IMG/VR virus record: IMGVR_UViG_3300017751_000291
Coordinates: 1 to 21,627 of that record
DNA: 21,627 nucleotides
From: a virus
Reading direction: 5' to 3' (one strand)
Shown here in pieces: positions 2,015-20,836 of the stretch (position 1 is the first letter of the stretch; each line of letters opens with the position of its first letter). Both the position numbers and the translations under genes were made by a program. The notes below the pieces were generated by a model that saw nothing but the letters and a program-made list of their open reading frames with translations, did no database searches and had not been told where the DNA came from.

Positions 2015-4279
2015 ATGGCAGAAAGAATTGTATCACCTGGAGTATTCACAAGAGAAAACGATTTATCGTTCTTGGCTCAAGGTATCGGAGAAATTGGAGC
2101 AGCATTCGTAGGACCTTTCAAACAAGGACCTGCTTTCGTTCCCACAGTAGTTAGAACTCAATCAGAATTTGAGGATAAATTTGGTAAACCTGATGGAACT
2201 TACTATACAGGACAAGCAGTACAAAACTATCTTAGAGAAGCTGGTTCTGCAACGATTGTAAGAGTAATGAATGAAGGTACGACTACACAAAACTTCCCTA
2301 TTGGGTTAGTTGCAGATGGAAAACTAATTTCAAGTATTCATTCAACCAACGCTGGTGATGAAGAAGTTGGATTTGGTGCATTTAGTGTAAGTAGTGGAAC
2401 TGCATCTGGTTCATTTGTAGTAAGTGGTAGTGGTATCGGTGAGGTATCATCATCTTTATTACCATCAGCAACTAATGATGTTAGTGATGTATTTGGTGAA
2501 TCACCATTTGGTTCAAAGGATGGATATGTATATTCTTACTTTGAGAATGTAGCAACATCAGCTGATTATTCAGGTGGAGTATCTGCAGTAGCATTACCAT
2601 CTCAAATATTTGGTGGAGCTTCTTCAGCAAACACACCATATGTAAAATCACAATTAATTTCTGGTGAAAGAAGTGATTTATTCCGTTTCCATACAATTGG
2701 ATATGGTAGTAATGAAAATAAAAGATTTAAAATTTCTATCTCAAATGTAAAAGCAGCTGGTGAAGATGGTTCAACTGATTACTCTTCGTTCTCAGTAACT
2801 ATTAGAGGTTTTGCTGATACTGATAAGAGAAAAGTTGTTTTAGAATCGTTTAATAATGTAAACTTAGACCCATCATCACCTAATTTCATCGCAAGAAGAA
2901 TTGGTGATATGTATAGAACAATTGATGCTAATGGTAAAGTTACTGATAATGGTGACTGGGTAAATAACTCTAAGTATGTATGGGTAGAAGTTAAAGCAGA
3001 TGGTTCATACCCTGTTTCAGCTGCACCTTTTGGACATGGAGCATATACTAACCCAATCAACGCTACTGATGGAACTATTGTTCCTGCTGCAGTTTATCAA
3101 ACAAACTCATCAGTTAATACTGCTGGTTCATCAGCAAAATATGCTGGTTTAGATTTTGAAACTGCTGGTGTAAAAGGAGATAACGCTCATTATATGAACG
3201 CAATTCCTGATAACGCAGTTGTTGGTTCAAATGTTGATTTTGGATTCGATTCTCAATTATCATATGTAATGAGTGGTTCTGAATCATCTGATATGGTTAA
3301 GAGGCAATTTACAATAGCATTCCAATATGGATTCGATGGACAATCACCATCTGTATCTAAAAACTTAGGAGCTGATATAAATGGTTCAAACACACAAGGT
3401 TTTGATTGTTCAAGCGCAATAAAAGGTGGTACGATAGCATATGTTAAAGCATTAAACGCAATCTCAAATGTAGATGAGTATGATATCAATATGTTAGTAA
3501 CTCCTGGTATTATTAGAAACCTACACCCAACAGTAACTACAAAAGCTATTGATGTTGTTGAAGCTCGTTCTGATGCATTTTACATTGCTGATTTTAACGC
3601 AGTAAATGATTCAATCGCTCAAGCAACACAAGAATCAAATTCAGTAGATACAAACTACGCAGCTTCTTATTACCCTTGGGTTAAGACAGTTGATACTAAT
3701 ACTAACAAACTAATCTCAGTTCCACCATCAGTATTGATGCCAGCTGTATTTGCAGCAAACGATAACATCGGAGCTGAATGGTTCGCACCTGCTGGTTTGA
3801 ATAGAGGTGGTATTGTAGGAGCAGTTAGTGTATTGAATAGATTAACACATTCTGAAAGAGATACTTTATATGAAAACAAAGTAAATCCAATCGCTTCTTT
3901 CCCTGGGCAAGGTATTGTAGCATTTGGACAGAAAACGTTGCAAGATAAAGCATCAGCATTGGATAGAATCAACGTAAGAAGATTACTAATCACTGTTAAG
4001 AAGTTTGTGGCATCTACATCTCGATTCTTAGTATTCGAACAAAACACCGCTCAGACAAGAGGTAGATTTATAAACACTGTACAACCTTACTTAGAAGGAA
4101 TTCAACAAAGACAAGGATTGTACGCATTTAAAGTAGTAATGGATGAATCTAACAACGGACCTGATGTTGTTGATAGAAACATACTTGCTGGACAAATATT
4201 CTTACAACCGGCTAAGACCGCTGAATTCATTGTAATTGATTTCAACATCTTACCAACTGGAGCAGCTTTTTCAGCATAA
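2015..4279 (+). CDS. Contractile tail sheath protein (gp18-like)
   Basis: This 754-aa subunit would form the contractile sheath around the tail tube and drive injection. The N-terminus (MAERIVSPGVFTRENDLS and GIGEIGAAFVGPFKQGP) is the typical T4-like sheath start. The C-terminal ~200 residues (WFAPAGLNRGGI, RLTHSERDTLYENKVNPI, RRLLITVKKFV, QPYLEGIQQRQGLYAFKVVMDE) match the conserved sheath core that interlocks neighbouring subunits. It is longer than T4 gp18 (659 aa); the extra length lies in the Ser/Gly/Thr-rich middle (about residues 110-400), the region that forms exposed protrusion domains in this family. GGAG at 2000-2003, 11 nt before the ATG, supports the start. The tail tube follows after 54 nt, as in T4. 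Confidence 0.95.
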   Translation: MAERIVSPGVFTRENDLSFLAQGIGEIGAAFVGPFKQGPAFVPTVVRTQSEFEDKFGKPDGTYYTGQAVQNYLREAGSATIVRVMNEGTTTQNFPIGLVADGKLISSIHSTNAGDEEVGFGAFSVSSGTASGSFVVSGSGIGEVSSSLLPSATNDVSDVFGESPFGSKDGYVYSYFENVATSADYSGGVSAVALPSQIFGGASSANTPYVKSQLISGERSDLFRFHTIGYGSNENKRFKISISNVKAAGEDGSTDYSSFSVTIRGFADTDKRKVVLESFNNVNLDPSSPNFIARRIGDMYRTIDANGKVTDNGDWVNNSKYVWVEVKADGSYPVSAAPFGHGAYTNPINATDGTIVPAAVYQTNSSVNTAGSSAKYAGLDFETAGVKGDNAHYMNAIPDNAVVGSNVDFGFDSQLSYVMSGSESSDMVKRQFTIAFQYGFDGQSPSVSKNLGADINGSNTQGFDCSSAIKGGTIAYVKALNAISNVDEYDINMLVTPGIIRNLHPTVTTKAIDVVEARSDAFYIADFNAVNDSIAQATQESNSVDTNYAASYYPWVKTVDTNTNKLISVPPSVLMPAVFAANDNIGAEWFAPAGLNRGGIVGAVSVLNRLTHSERDTLYENKVNPIASFPGQGIVAFGQKTLQDKASALDRINVRRLLITVKKFVASTSRFLVFEQNTAQTRGRFINTVQPYLEGIQQRQGLYAFKVVMDESNNGPDVVDRNILAGQIFLQPAKTAEFIVIDFNILPTGAAFSA

Positions 4280-14061: not shown

Positions 14062-14093
14062 TTTTGTAAATCAATATATTTTTCGTATATTTG
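14062..14093 (+). promoter_or_regulatory. Host-type (Bacteroidota) promoter of glycosyltransferase gene
   Basis: TTTTG (14062-14066), 19 nt, then TATATTTG (14086-14093) fit the Bacteroidota -33/-7 rule. The -7 box is preceded by TTTTTCG, also present in three other promoters here. The box ends 19 nt before ATG 14113, leaving a short leader. Confidence 0.8.
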
Positions 14094-14112: not shown

Positions 14113-15069
14113 ATGAAAGTTACCATAGTAGTAAGAACATTCAAAAGACCCGAATTCTTAAAACAAGCATTATCATCAATACAACTACAAACCTATGATG
14201 ATTGGGAAGTTATATTGTTCGATGACAGTGGTTCTACTGATAATCTAAATATCTATAATAATTTCAAATCCAACAATCCAACAAAAAGAATAGTCTATAT
14301 TACATCAGCTACTCCATATGATATGTTTAAGGATTCTTGGAATATTGCACCTAAATTATCAAAGGGTGAATTAATTGTAAGATTGGATGATGATGATTTA
14401 TTGAGAGAGAACTCACTTGATTTTATAGTTCGTACTTATGAAAATAATCCAACTTTAGATTTTAGTTATGGTTCAGCTACATTTTTTGAAAATGATACAT
14501 TAAGAAGTAAGATTACAACACAAACTCCAATAGAGGCTCCTAAAACAGTTGATATATGGGAAGGGTATCTATATGAACACCCATATAACCTACCTTGGAG
14601 ATTTAAACACAATCATTATGATGAACCACAATATCATAGTTCTATAATTCATTGTTCTAAGGCTAATCATATGTGTGTATATCACACTTATGTTATGAGG
14701 GTATCATCAATACTGAAAGTTATCGATAAAATGGAAATAACATCCAACTTTGTTGATGATTTGGAAGCTATGGGTATTATGGATTATTTAGGATTATCTC
14801 ACACTTCTATAAAAAAGACACTAACCTACGCTAGAATCCATAGTAATGGTAGAGTTACTGATAAGGCTGGTAATGGTGAAGATACGTTGTGGAATAACAT
14901 ACTCAGAATTAGAGATGATGTTGAATTTCATAGAACTGATGGATTCCAATCTAATATTAATACAAATATAATAGATGGTGATGTTAATGATACTATAACC
15001 GATGAGCATAGACAGAGATTTAGTGAATATCTTAGTAAAGTAAAAAATACTTCAAAAACATTGGGATAA
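14113..15069 (+). CDS. Family 2 glycosyltransferase
   Basis: The 318-aa protein has the GT-A start MKVTIVVRTFKRPEFLKQAL, with QTYDDWEVILFDDSGSTDN (nucleotide-sugar site, about residues 26-43), and the metal-binding acidic motif LIVRLDDDDLL (D92-D95). This arrangement is standard for GT2 enzymes that move a sugar from a nucleotide donor. There is no membrane segment, so it is cytosolic. The acceptor is unknown: phage DNA, a virion protein or a host surface glycan are all possible. The gene stands apart from the tail operon, with its own host-type promoter, so it is probably expressed early. It may be an acquired accessory gene. Confidence 0.85.
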   Translation: MKVTIVVRTFKRPEFLKQALSSIQLQTYDDWEVILFDDSGSTDNLNIYNNFKSNNPTKRIVYITSATPYDMFKDSWNIAPKLSKGELIVRLDDDDLLRENSLDFIVRTYENNPTLDFSYGSATFFENDTLRSKITTQTPIEAPKTVDIWEGYLYEHPYNLPWRFKHNHYDEPQYHSSIIHCSKANHMCVYHTYVMRVSSILKVIDKMEITSNFVDDLEAMGIMDYLGLSHTSIKKTLTYARIHSNGRVTDKAGNGEDTLWNNILRIRDDVEFHRTDGFQSNINTNIIDGDVNDTITDEHRQRFSEYLSKVKNTSKTLG

Positions 15070-15092
15070 TCCAAATATTTTTCGTATATTTG
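15061..15092 (+). promoter_or_regulatory. Host-type promoter of PolA-like gene
   Basis: TTGG (15061-15064) overlaps the end of the glycosyltransferase gene; TATATTTG (15085-15092) follows about 20 nt later, preceded by TTTTTCG. Only 4 nt separate the -7 box from ATG 15097, so transcription would start at or near the start codon. Confidence 0.78.
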
Positions 15093-15096
15093 TATA

Positions 15097-16365
15097 ATGG
15101 TTATAGTTGAATCGCAAAATGAAGTAAATGAGTTCCTACAAATGTGGGAAACAACTCCATCTACAATAATTCCTATTTGGAGTGATTTGGATAAACATCC
15201 AATGAACAACGAACTTGCTTTCTTATTTGTAAGGATGGGAAATACTGACTTTATCCTTATATATAATCATATTGATGGGAAATCCCAACAATTAGACCTC
15301 ACAACTTCCACACAACCAAAATGGGTATGGAATAAGAAAGGCTTATTACAAATGGATATGGGTATCCAAAATACAATTGATATATCTACATACACATTCT
15401 TCGAAACAAATAAAATTATACCCGATGAGGTACAAAATCAATCGTTTATCTCACATTATACCCGAATGGGTATACGTGATAACTTAGGAAAGATATCACC
15501 TCTAATGAAGTGGGGGGAGTTCCTAACAACATTTGTGAATAATCTCAATCTTCCCTCTAAATATGAAAGTTGGGTTGATAAAACGATGATTCCTCTTCTT
15601 TCAGATATCGAACGATATGGGATTAATGTCGATGAGAAAAAATTTATTGATAGATTTCCACAAGCTACTAAACAGCTAATCAATACAACCCTTTATACCC
15701 AATACAACCCATACACCATTACATCCCGTCCATCCAATAGGTTTGGTGGAATCAACTTTGGAGCGTTGAACAAAAAAGATGGAACGAGAGAAGTATTTAT
15801 CCCAAAAGAGAATCATATATTCTTACAAATGGATTTTGATGCATATCATCCCCGTATCATTGGTAAGTTAACTAATTACGATTTACCTAAAACATCCGTA
15901 CACCAATGGTTGGCAGAACAATACGGATGTTCCTATGAAGAATCAAAGGGAATCACATTCCAACTACTTTATGGTGGTATACCTGATGAGTTTGATGAGA
16001 TACCTTATTATAGGGGTGTTAGAGAGTTTATTGATAAATTGTGGTTAAAGAGTACTGAGAGTGGATATCTTCAAACACAATGTAGGAGAATACCCTTAGA
16101 GTGGATTGAGGGAAACAACCCACAAAAGTTATTTAATTATCTACTTCAAGCGACTGAAACTGAGTTGAATATGGAGAGACTAACGAAAATTTTAGAATAC
16201 ATCAAAGATACGGATGTAGAATTAACTTTATATTCATATGATGCATTTTTATTTTCATATCCAATTGAGGGTGGAGCAGAACATGCTAAGAATTTGAAAA
16301 AAATAGTTGAAGGTGGTGGGTTTCCTATCAAAGCTGATTGGGGAACGGATTATGGAAAACTTTAA
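15097..16365 (+). CDS. Compact family-A DNA polymerase (PolA-like) with degenerate exonuclease region
   Basis: The 422-aa protein keeps the polymerase core in order. IERYGINVD (171-179) matches the start of the Pol I palm. TSRPSN with R211 matches TGRLSS. Motif A is MDFDAYHPR (catalytic D246, R253). Motif B is KGITFQLLYGG (K284, F288, Y292). NPQKLFNYLLQATETELNM matches the NxxxQGTAAD helix. Motif C is YSYDAF (D382), in place of VHDE. The steric-gate Glu of motif A aligns with His251, and the O-helix Arg754 position of E. coli Pol I aligns with Tyr. The N-terminal ~110 residues resemble a 3'-5' exonuclease fold, but the acidic residues look degraded (SDLDKHP; WNKKGLL where an Asp is expected). 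Only ~30 residues separate IERYGI from TSRPSN, so the thumb seems missing. T7 gp5 is 704 aa. The alternative start Met16 (15142) would allow a leader. Confidence 0.8.
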   Translation: MVIVESQNEVNEFLQMWETTPSTIIPIWSDLDKHPMNNELAFLFVRMGNTDFILIYNHIDGKSQQLDLTTSTQPKWVWNKKGLLQMDMGIQNTIDISTYTFFETNKIIPDEVQNQSFISHYTRMGIRDNLGKISPLMKWGEFLTTFVNNLNLPSKYESWVDKTMIPLLSDIERYGINVDEKKFIDRFPQATKQLINTTLYTQYNPYTITSRPSNRFGGINFGALNKKDGTREVFIPKENHIFLQMDFDAYHPRIIGKLTNYDLPKTSVHQWLAEQYGCSYEESKGITFQLLYGGIPDEFDEIPYYRGVREFIDKLWLKSTESGYLQTQCRRIPLEWIEGNNPQKLFNYLLQATETELNMERLTKILEYIKDTDVELTLYSYDAFLFSYPIEGGAEHAKNLKKIVEGGGFPIKADWGTDYGKL

Positions 16366-16400: not shown

Positions 16401-18626
16401 ATGAACAAAACCGAATTTATTGAAGAGCTAATATTAGAAATATCCTATCGTTCAGATGAGGGATATCCTATATTAAATAAATCTACACATATTACACTAC
16501 TATCTGAGATATTAGATGAGTGGGGATATACCGAAATTAAAAACGAATTAATACAAAATCTTTTAGAAGCAGATGATGAAACATTTACTGCTACAAAGAA
16601 AGATACAAAACAAACATCAACATTTGATAGTGAAGAAGCAAGAGATGATGCAATTGAAAAGGGAACTCACATTAAGAAAGATGATACTAAAGATAATACT
16701 ACTAAAAAATCAACCACATTTGATGCATCTACTTCTGATGGATTAGCTTATATAAAAAGTTTAGGAAAGGATGATGAGGCATATAAAGCAGCAGTTAAAG
16801 CTGGTCATATAACTGATGATGATAACGATGTTAAAAATACCAATAGTAAACCAAAAACTAATTCCGATTTAGAAAGAAGTGGTTTTGGTGAAAAGGATAA
16901 AAAACACTTAGATAATCCAAATGGACCTACTCGTAAAGAAATAAACGATGATTTAAATGAAGGTAATTTGGATAAACTTACGGAATATCAAAAAGGTGTT
17001 CAACTCAATAGAGAAAAGGGTATTTCTGGAATGGGAGGTGCTGTTGCAAGTGAAGGTGAATCTAAATATTGTGATGCTACTAATACCGATTTTGAAAAAT
17101 GGGATTCCGATAACGAAGATAGAATCAATATTGTACAAAATGAAATAGCACAAAAAACAAAAAAATCAGCAGATGAATTTAGAGTAGCTGATGCATTGGG
17201 ACTATCACCTAATTCAGATGAACTTAATAATTATCTTGCAAAAAGACAAGTTTGGGTTAATGAACAATTGGAAAATATCAAAAAAGAAAAAAACAGTGTT
17301 TTTTACTTAAAAGGTAAAAAAGGCTTTAATGGTAAAGATGCTGCATATGAAGAATGGATGAAAGTTGCTTATGATGGTGCACAAACAACAAAGAGAGCAA
17401 TAGATGATTCATCAATTGATTCATCAAAGCCAAATGTAACAATTCAATCTACGGCAGAAGTAGACCAATCAGTACAAGCACATTTAGAAGATAGTGTACA
17501 AAACGCTAAAACCGATGATGATAGAAAACATGCTGAGATTCAATTAAAAAACTTCAATAAATTTAAAAGTTATCACGATACATATGTAGTTGGTAAGGAT
17601 ATAAATGGTAGAACTACCTATATGGGAATATCTAACAAAAAAGATGGTCAGATGAATGACCCTCAAAATAACACTACTCCAAAGAAGCGTTTTGAACAAT
17701 TAGCAAAAAAATATGGTAAAGATGTTGCTGGTACTGTAACTCAATCATTAAAAAATAATGTAAAGGCAGTTTCTGAGGTCAAAGGAAATACAGTAAAAAG
17801 TTCAAGTAAATTGATAATTGATAGTGAGTATGTTGCTATATGTGAAACAAAAGAAATGAAATCATATCTACAAAAACTAAGAGATACTGGTTCATTTAGA
17901 GATTATGTAAAAGCTAAAGGTATGGATCCTGATACAATTGGTACAAAAGAACTTTTAACCGAAATGAATCAACATGCAAATGAATTAATTGAAGCTGGTA
18001 AGAATCCAGGGTACGATGCATATGGTAAAATTGCTATAAAAGTTGGTGAATTTGCACAACAACCCAAATTTCAAAAAGAAAATCCTCTATTGAACTTCGA
18101 AAATGAAAGTATCAAAAAAGCAGTAGATATAAAGGAAAATGAAAAAAACGTTGTTAAAACATCACACCTTAGAGTTGTTAATGAGTTAGTTGATGCTGAT
18201 AAGCCTGATGGGTATTCTGATGAAAACCCAAATGCAGATAATGGGGTTCATCAGCAAGGTTATATTAGTGGTGTATTAGATGCATGTCATATAGATACAT
18301 ACATAGATATGGATTCTGATGATGGTATGTTACTTCAAATGGGAATTAATGGTGTAAAACCATCTATGTTAAGAAAGTGTGTTGCTGAAAAAAGTGGATT
18401 TGAGGGAGATAGTACAACTACAGAAGGTAAACAACAACTAAAAGACCATTTACGAAAAAGATGTAGAGTTACACCTGGTGGTGATAGAATTACAATTAAG
18501 GGTAGTGATGGTAAGGATACTGAATTATTTGAAGATTCTTGGAGAACTGCTGGTACTTCTCAAAAGGTAGCAACTCATTTTGGGAAGAGTATGAGAATTT
18601 GTTTACAAAAGAAAGCTGCAAAATAG
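16401..18626 (+). CDS. Large hydrophilic protein of unknown function
   Basis: I do not recognise this 741-aa protein. Residues 1-55 (TEFIEELILEISYRSDEGYP, ending NELIQNLLE) look like a small helical domain. Residues 55-165 are low-complexity, rich in Lys, Asp and Thr, with two related segments, TFDSEEARDDAIEKGTHI and FDASTSDG...AAVKAGHI. The middle is charged and helical. The C-terminal ~200 residues look folded and distinct (GVHQQGYISGVLDACHIDTY, DSDDGMLLQMGINGVKPSML, LRKRCRVTPGGDRITIKGSD), with several Cys. No membrane segment or signal peptide is seen. The late-type motif 27 nt upstream suggests a virion, prohead or co-injected protein. A modular plan (short N-terminal domain, disordered linker, C-terminal domain) is all that can be supported. 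Confidence 0.8.
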   Translation: MNKTEFIEELILEISYRSDEGYPILNKSTHITLLSEILDEWGYTEIKNELIQNLLEADDETFTATKKDTKQTSTFDSEEARDDAIEKGTHIKKDDTKDNTTKKSTTFDASTSDGLAYIKSLGKDDEAYKAAVKAGHITDDDNDVKNTNSKPKTNSDLERSGFGEKDKKHLDNPNGPTRKEINDDLNEGNLDKLTEYQKGVQLNREKGISGMGGAVASEGESKYCDATNTDFEKWDSDNEDRINIVQNEIAQKTKKSADEFRVADALGLSPNSDELNNYLAKRQVWVNEQLENIKKEKNSVFYLKGKKGFNGKDAAYEEWMKVAYDGAQTTKRAIDDSSIDSSKPNVTIQSTAEVDQSVQAHLEDSVQNAKTDDDRKHAEIQLKNFNKFKSYHDTYVVGKDINGRTTYMGISNKKDGQMNDPQNNTTPKKRFEQLAKKYGKDVAGTVTQSLKNNVKAVSEVKGNTVKSSSKLIIDSEYVAICETKEMKSYLQKLRDTGSFRDYVKAKGMDPDTIGTKELLTEMNQHANELIEAGKNPGYDAYGKIAIKVGEFAQQPKFQKENPLLNFENESIKKAVDIKENEKNVVKTSHLRVVNELVDADKPDGYSDENPNADNGVHQQGYISGVLDACHIDTYIDMDSDDGMLLQMGINGVKPSMLRKCVAEKSGFEGDSTTTEGKQQLKDHLRKRCRVTPGGDRITIKGSDGKDTELFEDSWRTAGTSQKVATHFGKSMRICLQKKAAK

Positions 18627-18706: not shown

Positions 18707-19108
18707 ATGAAAACGCAATTACTGTGTACATTTACGACAAAGGCTGAGTTACAAAAGGTTCTACAAGATATTAGAGACACTTATGTAATAGTATATAACT
18801 ACATCTACATACTTCAGAACAAATCAAACTTAGATGAATTATACATCACATATAACATCAACACCGAATTCAGACCACATCAACCATTAAGTGATACTAT
18901 TTTGATTCATCGTAAAAAAGAATCAAATTCACTATATACAATCAATGCACTAAACCAACTTGTGAAAGAAGAAAATGGCGGAGTGTTGGATAAATCATTT
19001 ATCATCGATTGGCAGAAGTTTAGAAATTCTATAATACTTACAAATACTGAAGGTACTAAGAAAATCCAAACTCGTATATTTGAAGTAATTGAGTTTAATC
19101 AAAAATAA
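18707..19108 (+). CDS. Hypothetical protein, 133 aa
   Basis: The protein contains TKAELQKVLQDIRDTYVIVYNYIYILQNKSN, then DELYITYNIN and a basic C-terminal half (DTILIHRKKESNSLYTINAL, VLDKSFIIDWQKFRNSIILT). No catalytic motif is evident and I cannot name the family. It is preceded by a putative late promoter and ends 8 nt before the YkuD-like gene, so the two are probably co-transcribed. The start at 18707 is the first Met and follows an A/T-rich leader. Confidence 0.72.
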   Translation: MKTQLLCTFTTKAELQKVLQDIRDTYVIVYNYIYILQNKSNLDELYITYNINTEFRPHQPLSDTILIHRKKESNSLYTINALNQLVKEENGGVLDKSFIIDWQKFRNSIILTNTEGTKKIQTRIFEVIEFNQK

Positions 19109-19116
19109 AATAACAA

Positions 19117-19728
19117 ATGGCAAAATTTACACGAGAACAAATCGAAGAAGCATTAAATTGCAATGGCTATAAATACTTTACAAGTGATAAAGGATATGAT
19201 GTTAACATCGTTGGTATTAGAAATTCCGATACACATGGTGAAGTAACAAATAGATTTGATGATACTTTAACAATATCATATAAGGATTCAGATGGTAAGT
19301 GGATTTATAATGAATACAAAGCAACAACTGATCCTGGTTCTCATTGGGAAAAGAACCTAATGAATGATAAAGGTGTTGCAATACTTAAACCTGGTCAATA
19401 TAGAGGTTCACATAAAATCAGACTTCATCAGGGAAAATATGAAGCATTAGGTCAACAAAAACCTGTTAAAGTTTATAGAGATAATAACAAAGATGGTAAA
19501 TATGATATGATTGAAGAGAATATAGATGAAGGTATATTTGGAATCAATATTCATAAAGCTGGAAAGTTTGTAAATGGTTCAACTCAGATTGATAAATGGT
19601 CAGCTGGTTGTCAAGTATTCTCTAAGGAATCAGATTTTAACGAATTTATGGAAATTTGTAGAAAGGCTAGAGATATATGGGGAAACTCTTTCACATACAC
19701 ATTGATAGAATCTAACGATATCGTATAG
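19117..19728 (+). CDS. YkuD-like (L,D-transpeptidase fold) protein, possible cell-wall enzyme
   Basis: The 203-aa protein carries GIFGINIHKAG (His146) followed by DKWSAGCQVFSKES (Ser162, Cys165). This His...SxGC arrangement is that of YkuD-type L,D-transpeptidases (HxnS-H/x-GC), with Cys165 as the candidate nucleophile. Before it come NIVGIRNSDT, NRFDDTLTISYKD and KATTDPGSHWEKN, then a Ca-site-like loop RDNNKDGKYD (121-130). There is no signal peptide, so it would need a holin, a membrane defect or virion delivery to reach the wall. It could act as an endolysin-like hydrolase or cross-link editor; the activity is inferred from motifs only. It follows the 133-aa gene by 8 nt and is closed by the terminator at 19754, in the probable late unit. 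Confidence 0.6.
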   Translation: MAKFTREQIEEALNCNGYKYFTSDKGYDVNIVGIRNSDTHGEVTNRFDDTLTISYKDSDGKWIYNEYKATTDPGSHWEKNLMNDKGVAILKPGQYRGSHKIRLHQGKYEALGQQKPVKVYRDNNKDGKYDMIEENIDEGIFGINIHKAGKFVNGSTQIDKWSAGCQVFSKESDFNEFMEICRKARDIWGNSFTYTLIESNDIV

Positions 19729-20020: not shown

Positions 20021-20836
20021 ATGGCACTAGATTTAAGCGCAATCAGAGGTAGACTGAACAAACTACAAAACACTGGTAATTCTAAAAGTAATCTTTGGAA
20101 ACCAACTCCTGGTAAACATCAAGTAAGAATTGTACCTTACCTATTCAACAAAGAAAATCCTTTCATCGAATTGTATTTTCACTACAACATCAACAACAAA
20201 ACTTATTTATCTCCTTCTTCGTTTGGAAGACCAGACCCTATTGTAGAGTTTGCTGACAAACTAAAAAGAATGGGTGATAAAGAAGATTGGAAAGCAGCTA
20301 AGAAAATGGAACCTAAGTTAAGAACTTTTGTACCTGTATTAGTTAGAGGTGAAGAAGGTGAAGGAATCAAATTTTGGGGATTCGGTAAAACTGTTTATCA
20401 AGAAATCTTAGGATATATCGCAGATCCTGATTATGGTGATATTACTGAACCAACAACTGGTAGAGATATTACTATTGAATATACTTCAGCTGAAGATGCA
20501 GGGACTTCATATCCTGTAACTACAATTAGAGTAAAACCAACTCAAACTCCTATAACAAACGATGAAGCGCAAGTAAAACAATTGTTAGAAGGACAAACTA
20601 ATATTACTGATATCTATTCAGAATTAACTTATGATGAATTGAAAGGTATTTTAGAAGGTTGGTTGAATCCATCTGCAGAAGGAGGACAAGAGAGTGTATC
20701 ACAACAATCACTTTCAACTCCATCAACTCCATCAACTCCAGCAGCACCTGCTCCACAGGCAGCAGCACCTGTTGCAGAAGATAGAAAAAAGTTAGATGAT
20801 GTAGCAAACGCATTTGACGATTTATTCAATTCATAA
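20021..20836 (+). CDS. Single-stranded DNA-binding protein (gp32-like)
   Basis: The 271-aa protein has the gp32 start (ALDLSAIRGRLNKLQ, then SNLWKPTPGKHQVRIVPY) and an OB-fold-like core with NPFIELYFHYNINNKTYLSP and IKFWGFGKTVYQEIL. The C-terminus is a Pro/Ser/Thr/Ala-rich linker (about 232-250) and an acidic tip (DDVANAFDDLFNS), which in T4-type SSBs recruits replication and recombination partners. T4 gp32 (301 aa) binds zinc through one His and three Cys; this protein has no Cys at all, so the zinc site is absent. It is followed after 12 nt by uvsX, and the two proteins would act together on single-stranded DNA. Confidence 0.88.
   Translation: MALDLSAIRGRLNKLQNTGNSKSNLWKPTPGKHQVRIVPYLFNKENPFIELYFHYNINNKTYLSPSSFGRPDPIVEFADKLKRMGDKEDWKAAKKMEPKLRTFVPVLVRGEEGEGIKFWGFGKTVYQEILGYIADPDYGDITEPTTGRDITIEYTSAEDAGTSYPVTTIRVKPTQTPITNDEAQVKQLLEGQTNITDIYSELTYDELKGILEGWLNPSAEGGQESVSQQSLSTPSTPSTPAAPAPQAAAPVAEDRKKLDDVANAFDDLFNS

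Follow-up and report, generated by a model that had tools for sequence, protein, structure and literature searches.

The locus at 15097-16365 and its neighbours

The window analysed here is the whole 21,627-base IMG/VR virus record IMGVR_UViG_3300017751_000291, beyond which nothing exists in that record. An uninterrupted reading frame on the plus strand, 15097-16365, runs from an ATG to a stop and encodes 422 amino acids, and there are many stops on the opposite strand. The product is a thumb-truncated family-A DNA polymerase and a new member of divPolA1, a family published in 2024 and named by Yutin et al. (Virol J 21:200; PMC11348598) from 14 genomes, including that of Flavobacterium phage immuto_3-5A; the name is used solely in that paper and its preprint. 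At 422 residues the protein is 282 residues shorter than T7 gp5 (704 residues), much as the preliminary description had estimated (~280). It is not a frameshifted or truncated fragment of a longer polymerase, because 202 distinct full-length homologues have the same length.

Immediately upstream, at 15061-15096 (+), is a putative promoter of the Bacteroidota type, with TTG followed after 21 bases by TATATTTG. The motif reads TTTTTCGTATATTTG, with a -7 box TAnnTTTG, and a similar sequence precedes divPolA1 in most close relatives. It stops 4 bases short of the ATG, so a leaderless divPolA1 transcript is possible. This promoter-like motif recurs in intergenic DNA at positions 14086, 19806, and 19897 of the window.

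The upstream part of the window carries T4-like tail genes, among them a sheath gene (PHROG_23) at 2015-4279. Downstream of divPolA1 are genes for a gp32-like single-strand-binding protein (SSB; 20021-20836, +) and a UvsX/RecA-like recombinase that is cut by the contig end (20849-21625, +), both assigned from Pfam and PHROG matches and from conserved gene order. In nearly all loci that are long enough the order is the same: a gene for a 748-residue protein, one for a 117-residue protein, divPolA1, a gene for a 133-residue protein, SSB, UvsX, a 5'-nuclease, and DnaB. Among eligible loci these neighbours were found in 138 of 138 (748-residue protein), 148 of 160 (117-residue), 119 of 119 (133-residue), 86 of 93 (SSB), 73 of 81 (UvsX), 59 of 66 (5'-nuclease), and 55 of 63 (DnaB). 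divPolA1 thus heads a conserved gp32 - UvsX - 5'-nuclease - DnaB helicase module.

The window departs from the published divPolA1 loci in the two genes that flank its polymerase gene. A family-2 glycosyltransferase gene (14113-15069) lies between the 117-residue protein gene and divPolA1, and its presence there in just 6 of the 160 eligible loci suggests that it was inserted recently. On the other side, a gene for a 741-residue protein without family matches (16401-18626) separates divPolA1 from the 133-residue protein gene, and among relatives the gap between these two ranges from 40 bases to more than 4 kb. The window also encodes a 203-residue protein (19117-19728) that matches PHROG_3000 and a PHROG endolysin family; of the 103 eligible loci, only 4 have it within the replication module.

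The 133-residue protein (18707-19108, +) is encoded by the next family-wide gene downstream of divPolA1, and accompanies it wherever the contig is long enough. It is present at 37-46% identity in exactly those six phage records that contain divPolA1, and all ten of the contigs above 10 kb that were tested encode both it and divPolA1. Seven of its residues are invariant (H68, K70, N74, Y77, N80, N83, and W102). Its AlphaFold2 model is confident (pLDDT 92.7). Neither the families of Pfam, PHROGs, and NCBIfam nor the PDB, searched by sequence and by fold, contain a match to the protein. The 748- and 117-residue proteins, taken as a comparison for co-occurrence, diverge faster, and tblastn found both in LR756508 only; the phyletic co-occurrence of the 133-residue protein may therefore be in part a clade signature. 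Because it and divPolA1 could both mark a single phage clade, we regard it as only a candidate partner of divPolA1.

Fold, active site, thumb region, and exonuclease-like domain

The single sequence matches Pfam DNA_pol_A below the curated cut-off (E = 0.002; 17.5 bits vs 34.3), and some members of the immuto clade exceed the cut-off once their pieces are summed. More sensitive comparisons are consistent with each other: the window protein matches the DNA polymerase family PHROG_17 (E = 7e-13), a PDB search with a profile of 76 homologues hits the Klenow fragment (E = 2e-8), and hhalign aligns the homologue profile to Pol I with E = 1e-10. An AlphaFold2 model built with the 76-sequence alignment (pLDDT 94.5, pTM 0.91) has Klenow structures as its top Foldseek matches, with 1kfd at E = 7e-20 and 1d8y at a TM-score of 0.72 by query length. 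Neither T7 RNA polymerase nor T7 gp5 alone gives a significant match to the divPolA1 profile. Membership in the family is direct, with CDS 1 of immuto_3-5A matching the window protein by tblastn at E = 3e-38 over residues 149-418, and with 29% identity in a full-length alignment. PMC11348598 describes the family as having a truncated thumb, exonuclease aspartates that are replaced, palm residues that are kept, a further DNA polymerase of the regular kind (family A, B, or C), and a conserved set of replication genes downstream. The window member has the truncated thumb, the palm residues, and the downstream gene order, together with a degenerate exonuclease-like domain, and its long relatives encode the further polymerase; that independent analysis reads the fold and the co-occurrence of polymerases as we do.

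An alignment to the Pol I motifs A, B, and C made earlier by eye, with D246 and D382 as the catalytic aspartates, holds up in the profile alignment to E. coli Pol I, which pairs D246 with D705, H251 with E710, Y280 with R754, K284 with K758, F288 with F762, Y292 with Y766, N347 with N845, Q351 with Q849, Y381 with H881, D382 with D882, and A383 with E883. It thus also recovers the three substitutions proposed previously, of the steric-gate Glu by His251, of the O-helix Arg by Tyr, and of HDE by YDA. Motif A (DFDAYHPR; 15832-15855, +) contains D246 and, at the steric-gate place, H251; motif B, the O-helix, lies at 15934-15975 (+) and contains Y280, K284, F288, Y292, and G293; and motif C is Y381-D382-A383 (16237-16245, +).

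These positions are strongly constrained. Among the 202 distinct full-length homologues D246, H251, K284, F288, Y292, and G293 are invariant, as are K344, Y348, Q351, E354, T355, and N358, and Y381 and D382 are invariant in all 201 sequences that have a letter at those columns; neither catalytic aspartate has therefore been lost in homologues. The residue at the E883 place is Ala in 133 and Ser in 68, that at the R754 place is Tyr in 186 of 202, and D248 is acidic in 183 of 202. The equivalents of R668, N845, and Q849, which contact the minor groove, are invariant or nearly so in the same 202 sequences. Pairwise dN/dS values of 0.03-0.26 indicate strong purifying selection and, together with the invariance of the core residues, argue strongly against a dead enzyme.

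Compared with Klenow, divPolA1 retains the overall fold, the order of motifs A, B, and C, and the equivalents of K758, F762, Y766, D705, D882, R668, N845, and Q849. However, Klenow is 183 residues longer and has a full thumb, an active 3'-5' exonuclease, a Glu gate, R754, and HDE; the thumb, Glu gate, and HDE that mark canonical family-A enzymes such as Pol I and T7 gp5 are all missing from divPolA1. T7 RNA polymerase belongs to the same superfamily, and its motif C (HDSF) is near the YD(A/S)F of divPolA1, but it has Gly at the gate, Met at the F762 place, and an N-terminal promoter-binding domain of its own. divPolA1 has neither the small gate residue nor the motif B Met of single-subunit RNA polymerases, and has instead His and Phe, both invariant. 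T7 RNA polymerase has Gly at a place where divPolA1 has the bulky His, so the gate may be altered without having been lost, and this His together with Phe at the F762 place points to an active site of the DNA-polymerase type. The word 'steric' does not occur in the main text of PMC11348598.

The region at the place of the Pol I thumb (G175-R211; 15619-15729, +) was delimited from landmark distances, the AlphaFold2 model, and the homologue alignment. It spans 36 residues, close to the ~30 counted initially between IERYGI and TSRPSN, whereas the corresponding Pol I region (G544 to R668) spans 124. The model bears out the proposed loss: in place of a full thumb, just two very short helices connect the IER helix (159-172) to the TSRPSN strand, and the region is even shorter in about 90 of the 202 homologues. 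TSRPSN itself (residues 209-214; 15721-15738, +) corresponds to TGRLSS in Pol I, and T209, R211, P212, and N214 are invariant.

The N-terminal 150 or so residues (15097-15546, +) form an exonuclease-like domain, as judged from column statistics, the AlphaFold2 model, and PMC11348598. The motif I and II columns have no conserved acid, and this, with the published family structure, backs the view that the domain has probably lost the expected acidic residues. H34, H58, K81, and D95 are invariant or almost so, and E141, conserved in 187 of 202, lies near exonuclease motif III as placed by homologue columns. Global alignments of this half to Klenow by hhalign and MAFFT were misplaced and were excluded.

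A second family in the same paper, divPolA2 of the barbaviruses and their relatives (AUR84708), is likewise a thumb-lacking family-A polymerase encoded beside a regular one. It gives no match to the divPolA1 profile, and we rejected kinship between the two on that ground. Read by eye, divPolA2 differs from divPolA1 in having a Glu gate (DFKAFE) and a motif C that retains DE (FDE); its N-terminal domain also differs and its gene neighbourhood is variable (PMC11348598).

Distribution, co-encoded polymerases, and primase

Scans of IMG/VR with three queries found at least 560, at least 312, and at least 109 stretches encoding divPolA1, in lists that overlap. Bacterial genome assemblies contain seven divPolA1 loci, mostly on contigs of metagenome-assembled genomes named as Flavobacteriia or other Bacteroidota.

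Because the window record is only 21.6 kb long, the gp43-like PolB that the preliminary description had proposed to look for in the rest of the genome was sought in relatives, and it is present in the nearest long ones. A full-length polymerase was found in 20 of the 21 divPolA1 records of at least 100 kb, the exception (G017) being 114 kb long and possibly incomplete. It is a PolB of about 850 residues in phages like that of the window and in those resembling Mel-JY01, and a PolA of about 780 residues in those resembling immuto. One near-complete relative of the window (G004) encodes an 852-residue PolB whose exonuclease and motif A/B/C sequences are intact (YDIECE, DLTSLYPS, YGVLG, and YIDTDSVF), followed by gp44- and gp62-like clamp-loader genes. 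Whereas the window's subclade has this gp43-like PolB, immuto has a second PolA, which retains DYTSLE, with an intact gate, and YDTET. The immuto gene for the full PolA adjoins GroES/GroEL, and this phage also has a 7-deazaguanine pathway with DpdA. The 484-kb LR756508 encodes a PolB and a DnaE-like protein besides divPolA1; in LR756508.1 at least two reading frames near 260-267 kb match PolB, perhaps because an insertion splits the gene, and the DnaE-like gene is at 47 kb.

The presence of PolB or PolA alongside divPolA1 fits a second polymerase and does not fit the replicative enzyme of a new lineage, so that of the two proposals made initially the latter is unsupported and a role as sole replicase was rejected. 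The former, a second, specialised polymerase for translesion synthesis, repair, or priming, stands as to the second polymerase but is weakened as to priming. A primase of the DnaG/gp61 type, about 320 residues long, is present in immuto, Mel-JY01, LR756508, and a number of long contigs, and in a 213-kb contig of the window-like subclade (G034) divPolA1, PolB, and this primase occur together, with the primase about 135 kb from divPolA1. There is no DnaG_N match in the contigs of 110-148 kb nearest to the window, but given the distance in G034 these simply end before the gene; a search of a 207-kb contig (G035) also gave no primase match. Replacement of the primase by divPolA1 at first seemed possible, but was rejected on the primases of G034 and other relatives, which make it unlikely.

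Possible roles of divPolA1 in the replication module

The reading that we favour, and consider probable, is that divPolA1 is a second, accessory family-A DNA polymerase of large T4-like phages, distributive and non-proofreading, that would act in gap filling or repair within the gp32-UvsX-5'-nuclease-DnaB module. It would catalyse template-directed addition of dNTPs; the absence of a duplex-gripping thumb predicts distributive synthesis, and the probable loss of the exonuclease acids predicts that there is no proofreading. Recruited by a module partner, whether SSB, the helicase, or the linked 133-residue protein, it may, alongside the 5'-nuclease that has a gene of its own, fill short gaps or extend 3' ends where recombination intermediates, Okazaki junctions, or lesions occur. 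The invariant bulky His is probably still a sugar gate, with altered stringency. Gap filling is suggested here by the gene neighbourhood; an enzyme that fills short gaps, extends 3' ends during recombination, or bypasses lesions could do without a thumb and without proofreading, and sequence does not separate these roles. In Pol I, replacing R754, E710, or E883 would each lower activity or fidelity, and as all three equivalents are replaced, catalysis by divPolA1 could be weak or different.

A dedicated translesion polymerase, with an open, thumb-poor site and missing proofreading specialised for bypass on damaged templates rather than for gap filling, is a less probable reading that we nevertheless take seriously. 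Surface-water phages are exposed to UV damage, divPolA1 stands near UvsX, and the absent proofreading and the altered O-helix (Tyr for R754) and gate would suit such an enzyme. However, no sequence feature is specific for lesion bypass, and no link to a damage-response gene is seen in the conserved module. It is distinctly unlikely, though conceivable, that divPolA1 is one half of a two-part enzyme, in which the thumbless core would obtain its grip on DNA in trans from the 133-residue protein and the His gate would confer a sugar or lesion selectivity unlike that of any studied family-A polymerase.

We consider it quite improbable that divPolA1 synthesises RNA, having evolved from a family-A DNA polymerase into a primase or a transcriptase in the manner of T7 RNA polymerase. 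The loss of the gate Glu in all 202 homologues, the closeness of YD(A/S)F to HDSF, and the placement near SSB and the DnaB helicase are in keeping with it, but the gate is a bulky His and not Gly, the F762 place has Phe and not Met, the profile does not match T7 RNA polymerase, and relatives, one of them the 213-kb contig from the window-like clade, have their own DnaG/gp61-type primase. A catalytically dead relic, retained to scaffold or regulate the replisome, is very improbable: the thumb is lost and the exonuclease half is kept even though its catalytic acids have probably gone already (also PMC11348598), but a dead palm needs none of the metal-binding aspartates or the K758/F762/Y766 and R668/N845/Q849 equivalents that are invariant, or nearly so, in 202 sequences. 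Least probable of all is that divPolA1 is the main replicative polymerase and the other one auxiliary, for although divPolA1 is constant and sits in the conserved module while the other polymerase varies (PolA, PolB, or PolC) and lies in a variable neighbourhood (also PMC11348598), lack of both thumb and proofreading would be very unusual for genomes of 150-200 kb, the co-encoded PolB is gp43-like, with its motifs intact and with clamp-loader genes of the T4 type, and the immuto PolA keeps DYTSLE and YDTET.

Polymerases of this kind, including the observations on thumb and exonuclease, have been known since 2024 (PMC11348598), and the testable additions made here are the invariant His gate and the linked protein of ~133 residues. 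divPolA1 is widespread in aquatic phages, with at least 560 IMG/VR stretches encoding it. The family demonstrates that a family-A core without its thumb, and probably without proofreading, can still be maintained by strong selection in phages that encode a complete replicase, and raises the question of why a T4-like replisome would need a second polymerase that barely grips DNA.
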